The notes beneath the pieces were generated by a model. It ran no database searches. It was given only the letters and a program-made list of their open reading frames with translations, and was not told where the DNA came from. This document shows, in pieces, positions 12,312-53,553 of a DNA stretch of 61,794 bases. The DNA comes from Gemmatimonadaceae bacterium (GTDB lineage: Bacteria > Gemmatimonadota > Gemmatimonadetes > Gemmatimonadales > Gemmatimonadaceae), in NCBI GenBank assembly GCA_017881685.1, contig JADGQR010000121.1, positions 1 through 61,794 of the forward strand, written 5' to 3'. The translations under genes and the position numbers were made by a program. Numbering within the stretch: the first letter of the stretch is position 1; every line of letters begins with the position of its first letter.

Positions 12312-12382
12312 TGCCCCCTCGTCCAATGGCAGGACATCGGTCTTTGGATCCGAGAATGGTGGTTCGAATCCACCGGGGGCAA
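12312..12382 (+). tRNA. tRNA-Gln(TTG)
   Basis: Cloverleaf: acceptor TGCCCCC/GGGGGCA, D arm GTCC..GGAC, anticodon loop CTTTGGA (anticodon TTG; T-T mismatch at 31/39), T arm GGTGG-TTCGAAT-CCACC. CCA not encoded. Confidence 0.9.
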
Positions 12383-12384
12383 TG

Positions 12385-13830
12385 ATGCGTCTTTTCATCT
12401 CGCTGGCCGCGGCAGCAATTCTCGCGAGCCCGGCAATTCTTTCGGCGCAGCAGCCAGGCGCACAATCGCACGCAACCATCACCGGAGTCGCTGTCGACAG
12501 CGTCCGGGGCGGCTATCTGCGTGGCGCGATCGTCTCAGTGAGCGGCACCGCGCTGTCCGGGATTACCGACTCGTCCGGGCGATTCAGAATCGACAGTGTT
12601 CCGCCCGGGACTCGGTATCTCGAGGTGATGCATCCACTCCTCGACTCCCTGAGTCTCATCGTCAGATCACCACAGCGGGAGATAGTCGCGGGCAGCAACA
12701 TGTCGTTCGTCTTGTCGGTTCCCTCGGCGAAGACAATCGTCGGCGCGAAGTGTGGTATCGCAGACCTGGCGCGCGGCCCCGCGGCGCTGTTCGGAACGGT
12801 TCAGGATGCCGACACGGAAACCCCCGCCAACGGAGCAACCGTTTCGGTCGAGTGGACCGACTATCAGCTCAGCAAGACCAAGATCGCACGCATGCCGCAG
12901 CGACGGCTCGGAACAGTGAGGCCCGACGGCACATATCGCGTTTGCGGAATTCCTTCCGATCTCGTTACCGGAGTCGTCGCCTATCGTGGCGCGGACAGCA
13001 CGTCGGCCGTGCCGGTGAACTTTTCAAATGGAATTGGCGTCGTCTCGTTCCATTTGCCAACCGGAGATGCAGCCGCAGCGACCAGGCCCGCGGTCGTCGC
13101 AGCGGTGCCGGGCGCAAAACAACCCGCCGCATTGCCTGCTCCACGAGGCAAGGCCGTGCTTAACGGAAAAGTCGTCGATGCCGGCGCCAGACCTCTTGCA
13201 GGAGCGAGAGTGGCACTCGAGGCGGATGATGCCGCGACGACAACCGATAATGCTGGAAAGTTTTCGTTGTCCGGACTCAGATCCGGAACGCGCTCGCTGA
13301 GCGTCCGCCGCCTGGGATTCGAAGCGGTAGAAGTTCCCGTCGATCTCAGCTCCGTCTCGCCGCGCGATGTGACAGTAACGATGTCAAAGTTCGTCCCCGT
13401 ACTCGACGCCGTTCGCATCACGGCTGTCCGCGAGCTCGGCCTTTCGCGCGTCGGGTTTACCGCGCGACAAGCCGCCGGTAACGGAAAGTTCTACGGACCA
13501 GACGACATCGCTACACGCAATCCGCAGAAGCTGAACTCACTTCTCGAGACTGCGCCGTATCTGCGAATGGGCACCGACGCGGACGGCCATCGTTACGTAA
13601 CCGGCCGGCTCAACGGCTGCGTCAAGTACTACGTCGACGGCCACCCCTGGTACACTGGCCAGGGCAACGACTGGCAGATGTCGCCGGACAATTTCCTCTC
13701 CGGTGGCGAGCTGGCCGGGGTCGAGATCTACGACGAGCTCTCAGCGCCATCCGAGTTCCAGAACTTCTCGAGCGCCGGGGCCAATTGCGCGGTCGTAGTC
13801 ATCTGGACCAAGCAGAAACTCGGGTTCTAG
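12385..13830 (+). CDS. Secreted carboxypeptidase-regulatory-like/TonB plug-like domain protein
   Basis: Signal peptide MRLFISLAAAAILASPAILSAQQ, then repeated CarboxypepD_reg-like domains (GAIVSVSGTALSGITDSSGRFRIDSVPPG; GARVALEADDAATTTDNAGKFSLSGL) and a plug-like C-terminus. The track ORF starts upstream, inside the tRNA region. Confidence 0.8.
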   Translation: MRLFISLAAAAILASPAILSAQQPGAQSHATITGVAVDSVRGGYLRGAIVSVSGTALSGITDSSGRFRIDSVPPGTRYLEVMHPLLDSLSLIVRSPQREIVAGSNMSFVLSVPSAKTIVGAKCGIADLARGPAALFGTVQDADTETPANGATVSVEWTDYQLSKTKIARMPQRRLGTVRPDGTYRVCGIPSDLVTGVVAYRGADSTSAVPVNFSNGIGVVSFHLPTGDAAAATRPAVVAAVPGAKQPAALPAPRGKAVLNGKVVDAGARPLAGARVALEADDAATTTDNAGKFSLSGLRSGTRSLSVRRLGFEAVEVPVDLSSVSPRDVTVTMSKFVPVLDAVRITAVRELGLSRVGFTARQAAGNGKFYGPDDIATRNPQKLNSLLETAPYLRMGTDADGHRYVTGRLNGCVKYYVDGHPWYTGQGNDWQMSPDNFLSGGELAGVEIYDELSAPSEFQNFSSAGANCAVVVIWTKQKLGF

Positions 13831-13887
13831 CGTTTCGCAGGGTTTTGTGCCTCGACAGGCGTCGTCGCCGGGCTTGTAAAAAGCAGA

Positions 13888-14171
13888 TTTTCGCCGCGAG
13901 GGTCGCCCCGGTTCACTGGCACTCGTCTGTCTCGAAGATCTCTCGCCTCGATGGGCATGCTCAGAGAAAGAAGAGAAATACGGTACAATTAAGGGAACCA
14001 CGGAAAAATCGGTGTGGACCAACCGGCCGAAGCGGGAAGCACGCACGGTTAAGAGGGTTGTTAACCCCCAATCAGTCGCCGTTCTCTTTTTCCTCTGAGC
14101 ATGCCCATCGAGGCGGGAAATCTTCGAGACAGACGAGTGTCCGTGAGCCGGGACGACCCTCGCGGCGAAAA
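13888..14171. repeat. Large imperfect palindrome (arms ~90 nt, ~90% complementary, ~103-nt spacer); possible structured ncRNA or MITE-like element
   Basis: TTTTCGCCGCGAGGGTCG...CGATGGGCATGCTCAGAG at 13888-13977 is inverted at 14081-14171. Confidence 0.85.
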
Positions 14172-14314
14172 AAACCGATAGCCAAGAGAAAACGCAACGA
14201 AGCCCGACTGCCGTGATTATTCCAGCAGGGTTACATTCCGGGACTCCGGAGAACTCCCTCCCCGGGCAATTGATCTAAGCTCAGCGTCTACTTAACTTTA
14301 AAGGCTATCGCGGC

Positions 14315-15271
14315 ATGGACGGACTATCCGTACCGAGTCACGGCTTAAAACTCCTGGTTGGATCCGGAAACCCGGCACTTTCTCAGGAAATTGCAAGCAG
14401 TCTCGGAGTCGACCAGGCCAAGGCGACGATCAGCCGGTTCGCTGACGGCGAGATCTTCGTTCGGATAGACGAAAACGTTCGCGGCAATGACGTTTTCATC
14501 CTGCAGCCGACAAACCCGCCGGCCGAAAACATCATGGAGCTTCTGCTCCTGATCGACGCGGCAAAACGGGCGTCGGCTGCTCGCATCACGTGCGTCATGC
14601 CGTACTACGGCTACTCGAGACAGGACCGCAAGGACCAGCCGCGAGTCGCCATCGGCGCAAAGCTCGTGGCGAACATGATCGTCACGGCCGGAGCGCACCG
14701 GGTGCTAGGACTCGATTTCCACCAGCATCAGCTACAGGGATTCTTCGACGTTCCAGTCGATCATCTCTACGCAGCACCAGTGTTCGTGTCGCATTACAGA
14801 AAGAAGCAGCTGCATGACCTTGTCGTCGTCGCACCCGATGTCGGCTCGGCAAAAATGGCGAGAGGTTTCGCGAAGCGGTTGAATGGCTCACTCGCCATCA
14901 TCGACAAGCGGCGCCCCAAGCCGAATCAAAGTGAAGTTGTGAACGTCGTCGGAGAAGTCGAAGGAAGAGATTGTCTTCTCACCGATGACATGATCGATAC
15001 CGCGGGGACCGTTTCCGAAGCCGCGCGGGCGCTGAAGGATCTTGGCGCAAAAGATGTGTACGTGTGCGCAACGCACGCGCTGCTCTCCGGCCCCGCCGTG
15101 AAGCGGCTCAGCGAAGCGCCAATCAAGGAAGTGACGGTCACCGACACCGTCTCTATTCCTGACGAGAAGCGGTTTCCGCAGCTCACAGTTTTGTCCGTCG
15201 GCGAATTGTTGGCCAAGGCAATCAGGTACATTCACAGCGAGCAGTCTGTCAGCTCGCTTTTCGAGCAATAG
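14315..15271 (+). CDS. prs: Ribose-phosphate pyrophosphokinase
   Basis: FADGEIFVRIDENVRGNDVFILQ, LTDDMIDTAGT PRPP loop. Confidence 0.96.
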   Translation: MDGLSVPSHGLKLLVGSGNPALSQEIASSLGVDQAKATISRFADGEIFVRIDENVRGNDVFILQPTNPPAENIMELLLLIDAAKRASAARITCVMPYYGYSRQDRKDQPRVAIGAKLVANMIVTAGAHRVLGLDFHQHQLQGFFDVPVDHLYAAPVFVSHYRKKQLHDLVVVAPDVGSAKMARGFAKRLNGSLAIIDKRRPKPNQSEVVNVVGEVEGRDCLLTDDMIDTAGTVSEAARALKDLGAKDVYVCATHALLSGPAVKRLSEAPIKEVTVTDTVSIPDEKRFPQLTVLSVGELLAKAIRYIHSEQSVSSLFEQ

Positions 15272-21337: not shown

Positions 21338-21475
21338 TGCGGACTCAGGACAAAAAGCCATCGACGATCGACGACTAATTGAGGGCTGAGGACCGAAACG
21401 GCAGTAACAGGTCCTCAGTGTCCGCAATTCTCAATCAGTCGTCGATCGTCGATGGCCGTTAGTCCTGAGTCCGCA
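21338..21475. repeat. Intergenic palindrome of two inverted copies of repeat family R1
   Basis: Arms 21338-21383 and 21430-21475 (42/46 complementary by eye) plus inner hairpin CTGAGGACC/GGTCCTCAG (21386-21394/21410-21418). Confidence 0.9.
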
Positions 21476-39177: not shown

Positions 39178-39220
39178 GATTGCGGCCTCAGGACTAACCG
39201 CCATCTACGATCGAGGACTG
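39178..39220 (-). repeat. Intergenic repeat R1 copy
   Basis: Reverse complement CAGTCCTCGATCGTAGATGGCGGTTAGTCCTGAGGCCGCAATC matches the copy at 40077-40119 in 39/43 positions by eye. Confidence 0.85.
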
Positions 39221-39245
39221 ACTGCGGATTGAGGACGACCTTCGG

Positions 39246-40021: not shown

Positions 40022-40073
40022 AGTGCAAGCACTCCCCCAGCGGAGCCACGCTGTTTTTTCAGTCCAGGTTCTC

Positions 40074-40147
40074 ACTCAGTCGTCGATCGTCGATGGCTGT
40101 TAGTCCTGAGGCCGCAGTCCATGGCGTTGGTCCTGAGGCCGCAATCC
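40074..40147 (+). repeat. Intergenic repeat R1 copy plus tandem partial copy
   Basis: ACTCAGTCGTCGATCGTCGATGGCTGTTAGTCCTGAGGCCGCAGTCC then TGGCGTTGGTCCTGAGGCCGCAATCC. Confidence 0.85.
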
Positions 40148-52381: not shown

Positions 52382-52427
52382 GGTTCCAATCTAGTCGATA
52401 GATCTTTCCCCTCACAAACTGCTCTTT

Positions 52428-52669
52428 GACACAGAGACCACGGAGACCACAGAGCAGGCGGGATCGGTAGGCATTCGGACGGGAAATGCACCTCGATTCC
52501 TCGGATCTATGGATTTGGGGTTAAACGACAGAAGGGCGGCCGGTTGTCGGGAGGCTCTCGACATGGTTTTCCGTAGTGCAACCCCAAAAAGGAAAAGCCT
52601 GGGAAGGAGAGAATCTCTCGTTTCCCAGGCTTCTTTCGTCTTTTCTGTGGTCTCTGTGGTCTCTGTGTC
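52428..52669. repeat. ~242-bp element bounded by 26-bp inverted repeats
   Basis: GACACAGAGACCACGGAGACCACAGA (52428-52453) inverted at 52644-52669 with one mismatch. Confidence 0.85.
52595..52632 (-). terminator. Intrinsic terminator downstream of the sigma factor gene
   Basis: AAGCCTGGGAA...GAGAG-AAT-CTCTC...TTCCCAGGCTT; - strand continues TTCCTTTTT. Confidence 0.85.
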
Positions 52670-52695
52670 GACTAGCAGTTGGAGAGCAGAATCCT

Positions 52696-53553
52696 CTAGC
52701 CGAGAAATGATTCGAGGGCTCGGCGTCGAGAATTATGCCGGAGCTTCAACAGGGCCTTCTCCTTGATCTGCCGAACTCTCTCGCGAGTGATGCCGAGGAG
52801 TGTTCCGATATCCTCGAGAGTCATCGGATCTTCACCATCGAGCCCAAAGTAGAGACGAAGAATTTTCGACTCCCTCTCTTTCAGTCCCGACAGAGACTCC
52901 TCGATCGCCTCGGTCAGAGCCTTCTCGAAAGTCTGCTCGTCCGGCGTGCGGTTCGTCGTGTCAGGGAGATAGTCGAGAAGCCGATTGTCCTCGCCGGGTG
53001 TCATGGGCGCGTCGAGCGACAGATGCACCTGCGAGATCAGCATCGTCTTCGCGACTTCTTCCTCGGTGATGTCGAGGCCTTCCGCTATCTCGAGATGTGT
53101 CGGCTGGCGGCCGAGCTCCTGAAGCAGAGTGCTCGCGCGCTTGCCGATCCTGTGAAGCGCCCCGGCGCGATTCAACGGAACGCGAACAATCCTCGACTGC
53201 TCGGCCAATGCCTGGAGGATGCTCTGACGGATCCACCACACCGCGTACGAGATGAACTTGATGCCCTTTGTCTCGTCGAATTTGTGGGCCGCGCGAATGA
53301 GTCCGAGGTTTCCCTCGTTGATCAGATCCGAGAGAGATACTCCCTGGTTCTGATATTTCTTCGCGACAGACACGACGAACCGCAGGTTCGAGCGCACGAG
53401 TTTATCGAGCGCTTCCTGGTCGTTCTTGCGGATCCGTTGCGCGAGAGTGACTTCCTCCTCGCGGGTTATCAGCGGATAGATGCTGATATCACGAAGGTAT
53501 TGATCCAGCGAACCTTCGTCGTACTGATTCTTCCGGTTTACCGAGACCGCCAT
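52696..53553 (-). CDS. rpoD: Primary-type sigma-70 factor lacking region 1.1 (285 aa)
   Basis: DQYLRDISIYPLITREEEVTLAQRI (1.2), LRFVVSVAKKYQNQGVSLSDLINEGNLGLIRAAHKFDETKGIKFISYAVWWIRQSI (2), ITRERVRQIKEKALLKLR (4.2). Confidence 0.93.
   Translation of the reverse strand: MAVSVNRKNQYDEGSLDQYLRDISIYPLITREEEVTLAQRIRKNDQEALDKLVRSNLRFVVSVAKKYQNQGVSLSDLINEGNLGLIRAAHKFDETKGIKFISYAVWWIRQSILQALAEQSRIVRVPLNRAGALHRIGKRASTLLQELGRQPTHLEIAEGLDITEEEVAKTMLISQVHLSLDAPMTPGEDNRLLDYLPDTTNRTPDEQTFEKALTEAIEESLSGLKERESKILRLYFGLDGEDPMTLEDIGTLLGITRERVRQIKEKALLKLRHNSRRRALESFLG

Follow-up and report, generated by a model that had tools for sequence, protein, structure and literature searches.

What is a long, near-perfect palindrome doing directly upstream of prs? 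It might be an RNA that belongs to this gene, a mobile sequence that happened to settle beside it, or an error of assembly. An earlier note, made from the letters of the window (the whole stretch of 61,794 nucleotides analysed here), offered among its options a giant hairpin RNA or leader controlling prs and a MITE, and it named a palindromic chimera as the outcome that would overturn the observation. Here, we examine the structure of the palindrome, its distribution in the host genome and its relatives, and the manner in which its two arms have changed, and we consider which kind of sequence could have such a history.

Structure and Position of the Palindrome

A repeat search of the window recovered two arms of 90 nt each, 91% complementary to one another and separated by a gap of 104 nt (table 1); no longer close inverted repeat is present anywhere in the window. 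The complementarity of about 90% that had been estimated by eye was thus borne out, as was the position of the left arm, but the right arm starts at 14082 and not at 14081. The closing sequences TTTTCGCCGCGAGGG/CCCTCGCGGCGAAAA are present as described, and the judgement that the locus holds no plausible reading frame stands, the only ORFs that overlap the palindrome being mechanical ones. On one side, a CarboxypepD_reg-like gene ends with its stop codon at 13830; on the other, prs starts at 14315. In most relatives, a tRNA-Gln(TTG) gene directly precedes prs, whereas here (12312-13830) and in the genomes G006 and G012 a CarboxypepD_reg-like gene stands between the two.

Folded as RNA, the palindrome reaches -198.5 kcal/mol on the + strand and -198.9 on the - strand. 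Shuffled versions of the sequence fold at about -98.5 and -101.4, respectively, with a standard deviation of about 5.2, which corresponds to a z of about -19 on either strand, and none of 200 shuffles folded equally well. Neither a sigma-70-type promoter nor an intrinsic terminator was predicted for the palindrome, and a role as either was consequently dropped. No Rfam family matched it, either at the gathering threshold or at E = 1. Integron sites of the attC type were also considered and set aside on their properties: such sites are shorter, and it is their structure that is conserved instead of the sequence of their arms.

Table 1. Parts of the prs-upstream palindrome (window coordinates) and its further copies in the host genome (contig coordinates)
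Feature	Position	Strand	Basis or context
Left arm of fold-back element	13888-13977	+	Repeat search; profile match 13887-13983, 90.3 bits
Terminal 12-mer GCCGCGAGGGTC, left end	13893-13904	+	Identical across 12 arms, 6 full copies
Spacer	13978-14081		Sequence varies among copies
Right arm, outer-to-inner on - strand	14082-14171	-	Repeat search; profile match 14077-14173, 85.2 bits
Terminal 12-mer GCCGCGAGGGTC, right end	14155-14166	-	Identical across 12 arms
Whole element, approximate extent	13884-14175		AT-rich outer ends, weakly conserved; termini approximate
Copy	C218:3218-3520		Between cutA-like (-) and uvrA (+)
Copy	C303:15423-15740		Between Ser/Thr dehydratase-like gene (-) and deoxyhypusine-synthase-like gene (+)
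Copy	C211:9163-9456		Adjoins start of P450 gene (-)
Copy	C65:4738-5023		Upstream of M13-peptidase-like gene (-)

Copies in the Host Genome and in Related Genomes

The earlier note had proposed a search of the host genome and its relatives for further copies, and the palindrome does prove to be multi-copy. The window's own genome (G000; 3.37 Mb in 341 contigs, an 84%-complete draft) contains four further palindromic copies, 72-81% identical, which together with the prs copy makes at least five. All five are intergenic, and the four further ones lie upstream of genes, whose names were read from their translations. An alignment of the full copies reveals a common architecture of a 12-bp end, a stem of 90-95 nt and a centre without conservation. 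The 12-mer GCCGCGAGGGTC is unchanged at both ends of six full copies (12 of 12 arms), the sixth being that of a relative described below, and its outer-to-outer distance is 274-279 nt in five of these six and 301 in C303. The hairpin GGGTTGTTAACCC and the TACAAT box to which attention had been drawn are both present in the window, but neither is common to the other copies. An arm-profile search found no single-arm copies in G000. No target-site duplication was detected; the words shared by the flanks are at most 4-5 nt long, as in shuffles, and the exact termini are uncertain. Copies have diverged by 20-28%, so the fold-back family may be old and inactive.

The same-genus genome G012 carries one full copy (C53:26712-27010), which directly precedes a cysteine-desulfurase-like gene; single arms alone occur at two further places, C21:915 and C140:60833. 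The remaining genomes of the genus and 180 genomes of the family were searched with the arm profile as well, and none yielded another convincing copy. The paired end motif occurs in G000 and G012 only, besides one match in G191 that has just a 10-base end in common with the element and looks like chance. Phage and plasmid collections yielded no match (blastn, distant mode), and a scan of GTDB r220 with a conserved 22-mer gave three single matches, one arm each in unrelated organisms, which we take as chance; so too a 15-mer match in G012 C22, which has no more likeness to the arms. Weak profile matches in G015 C58, G003, G001, G002 and G010 were inspected and are not palindromes of this type. 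The same G015 contig carries a related-looking motif, CGCGAGGGTCCGTCGGTTCA, in another arrangement; three occurrences of a motif of related appearance, CGCGAGGGTCCGTCGGTTCAGTGA, surround two small genes at L129 on this contig (600-630 and 1465-1530), again differently arranged.

Empty Sites

Among the 19 genomes of the genus, 17 have prs, G000 included, and we compared the upstream regions of this gene in 15 same-genus relatives; the palindrome is present in none of them. The junctions of the empty sites are approximate, the intergenic DNA being too diverged for base-level placement. In G006, where the CarboxypepD_reg gene is also present, the CarboxypepD_reg and prs homologies lie about 125 bp apart, compared with about 435 bp in the window, and in G018, G006 and G015, where the cutA-uvrA synteny is kept and the uvrA copy is absent, the gap between the conserved blocks is about 20-70 bp versus about 390-400 bp in G000. 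The relatives checked thus have an empty site at prs as well as at uvrA, and the element has therefore been inserted at these loci.

Concerted Change of the Two Arms

Within the five G000 copies, the arms of the same copy are 73-87% identical over about 94 aligned positions, and arms of different copies have a mean identity of about 72-74%. The true left-right pairing is the best of 945 for the ten G000 arms and the best of 10,395 when all twelve arms are used, statistics that come from a small sample of six full copies. In the stem, 84.3% of cells are paired. Double-sided change has occurred in 37 of the 95 stem pairs; shuffles give 21.7 such pairs and slid partners 8-16. The covariation score is 0.298, whereas shuffles reach 0.159 and slid partners no more than 0.105.

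Such covariation could be read as the signature of a selected transcript, and the earlier note had observed that about half of the arm differences in the prs copy are G-U compatible on the + transcript. Indeed 5 of 12 are, but so are 4 of 12 on the - transcript, which makes the observation uninformative about RNA. Over the six copies, G-U differences number 36 on the + and 31 on the - transcript. Furthermore, 34 of the 50 double Watson-Crick changes are of the transversion type, for which there is no path through a G-U intermediate, and within copies the double changes show mild clustering (P about 0.03). Because the G-U differences are balanced between strands and the double changes are mostly transversions, the data favour a stem whose pairing is kept at the DNA level more than by selection on RNA. 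Copying of one arm from the other as template would account directly for double changes that are both rich in transversions and clustered. Template switching is a published route by which hairpin stems are created and maintained (PMC8794818), and compensatory changes have been reported in the mobile REPINs (PMC3116915). The covariation of this element does not, by itself, show RNA. We put forward tentatively, as an idea more doubtful than probable, that this is an unusually long fold-back family whose arms are actively homogenised at the DNA level by template-switch copying, and which thereby acquires compensatory changes without RNA selection.

Comparison with Known Repeat Families

The element resembles the families ERIC/RU-1, Correia/NEMIS, RUP and Yersinia YPAL/RU-2 (PMC2229807) in being non-coding, intergenic and multi-copy, with terminal inverted repeats; as with those MITE-like families, its transcript would fold as one long stem-loop. 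The descriptions of ERIC, NEMIS, RUP and YPAL nonetheless set it apart, since it is about 290 bp long where they are under 200, has near-complete 90-nt fold-back arms, lacks a target-site duplication and consistent TA ends, and exists in few, strongly diverged copies. REPINs, pairs of inverted REP sequences that RAYT transposases mobilise (PMC3116915), share with it inverted, invariant end motifs, a less conserved stem and an extragenic position, and between its ends the element has the hairpin spacer with compensatory changes by which a REPIN is recognised. There is also a RAYT-like gene in the same genome, below the family cut-off: a Y1 transposase gene on C196 (L193 2218-3132), open at the contig end, that scores 70.1 bits against NCBIfam NF047646, for which the cut-off is 80. 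Contig C196 holds no copy of the prs-palindrome family, and the element-bearing G012 has no Y1_Tnp match. Unlike REPINs, the element has neither a REP core hairpin nor a GTAG/CGTC-type tag in the arm alignments that we inspected, and it is longer and present in few copies.

The MITE option of the earlier note is the best architectural fit: the copies are several and dispersed between genes, relatives show empty sites, and the element has terminal inverted repeats and no coding capacity. What the comparison with MITEs lacks is a target-site duplication and a parent transposon; neither the genome (84% complete, 341 contigs) nor the genus yielded a transposase gene or a longer element whose ends match those of the palindrome. 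In view of the missing duplication, autonomous partner and convincing REP/RAYT link, we file the element under neither heading: it works like MITEs and REPINs and is not a member of either.

G000 is home to at least two more fold-back families, TGCGGACTCAGGAC... and ACAGAGACCACGGAGACCACAGAG..., both richer in copies. Like the prs palindrome, both have paired inverted arms and variable spacers and are scattered between contigs; their arms are unrelated to its own, with only a vague inner-arm likeness in the case of the ACAGAGACCACGGAGACCACAGAG family. Within-copy arm matching is weaker in the TGCGGACTCAGGAC family (P about 0.01-0.03). Members of this TGCGGACTCAGGAC...GCCATCGACGATCGACGACTAATTG family lie in the window at 21338-21475 and at 39178-39236 with 40069-40119, their outer ends being 138 bp and about 936 bp apart, respectively, and 17 more two-armed copies, 148-403 bp in total length, lie elsewhere in the genome. 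The ACAGAGACCACGGAGACCACAGAG-armed family is represented at 52399-52698; its copies on C202 and C44 are about 90% identical over 245 bp, and there are further arm matches on other contigs.

Alternative Explanations

That the palindrome is a cis-acting leader RNA, or a small RNA, specific to prs is suggested by its place, with the prs start codon about 144 bp further downstream. The same sequence is missing from all 15 of the same-genus prs loci compared, its other copies precede unrelated genes, Rfam offers no relative even at E = 1 and the arm differences show no strand bias; a prs-specific function is already refuted by the non-syntenic copies, and we regard this explanation as highly improbable. 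The test that the earlier note had laid down for a non-coding RNA (single copy and syntenic, with covariation) gave covariation, but neither single copy nor synteny. A dispersed element acting at the RNA level is easier to entertain. Read-through from neighbouring promoters would then yield a long double-stranded hairpin whose cleavage by RNase III tunes the adjacent mRNAs, as has been proposed for the NEMIS repeats of Neisseria (PMC2229807). The very stable fold on both strands, the placement of copies upstream of genes and the covariation of the stem would agree with this; the lack of bias of G-U versus A-C differences to either strand, the predominance of transversions among the double changes and the negative promoter and terminator predictions argue against it. 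We consider it unlikely as the explanation of the element, although an RNase III role could coexist with mobility.

Two further explanations concern the origin of the palindromes themselves. Each might have been made in place by inverted duplication, through template switching or fold-back synthesis, of a dispersed single-arm repeat; the single-arm copies of G012 and the fact that the arms within each copy are the closest pair speak for such a process. Independent events would, however, vary in their extent, and five of the six full copies are of near-equal length (274-279 nt); moreover, the same 12-mer stands on both ends and G000 has no single arms, so this origin also seems improbable to us. 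As for an assembly chimera, false palindromes can arise in short-read drafts, but here the two arms show differences of about 9%, their spacer is unique sequence, and diverged, independent copies lie on five contigs and in the genome of another species. The artefact is effectively refuted, and we give it almost no weight.

A Probable Mobile Fold-Back Element

The palindrome is multi-copy and non-syntenic, relatives lack it at prs and at uvrA, and it is bounded by invariant 12-bp inverted ends and built of arms that change together. It probably represents a lineage-restricted, non-autonomous, non-coding fold-back repeat of about 290 bp, MITE- or REPIN-like, whose insertions lie between genes and mostly upstream of them. 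Next to prs, it has the look of a small mobile element, passive in itself, and not of an RNA or a switch that prs owns. Its movement would depend on an enzyme supplied in trans that recognises either the inverted ends or the hairpin once extruded. The complementarity of the arms would be kept by DNA-level processes and not by selection on the transcript, possibly by template-switch copying between the arms during replication or, alternatively, by selection for an extrudable DNA hairpin. If prs is affected at all, this would be a by-product of the altered DNA upstream of it.

As a kind, such an element is ordinary; the presumed homogenisation of its arms is the interesting part. What it adds is a family of interspersed palindromes that is restricted to its lineage and apparently undescribed. 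The element shows strong arm covariation and yet is almost certainly no syntenic RNA gene, and this bears on the reading of such evidence for long hairpins in draft genomes. If homogenisation at the DNA level is indeed the cause of the covariation, the family would be a natural warning case against the view that covariation proves an RNA to be functional.
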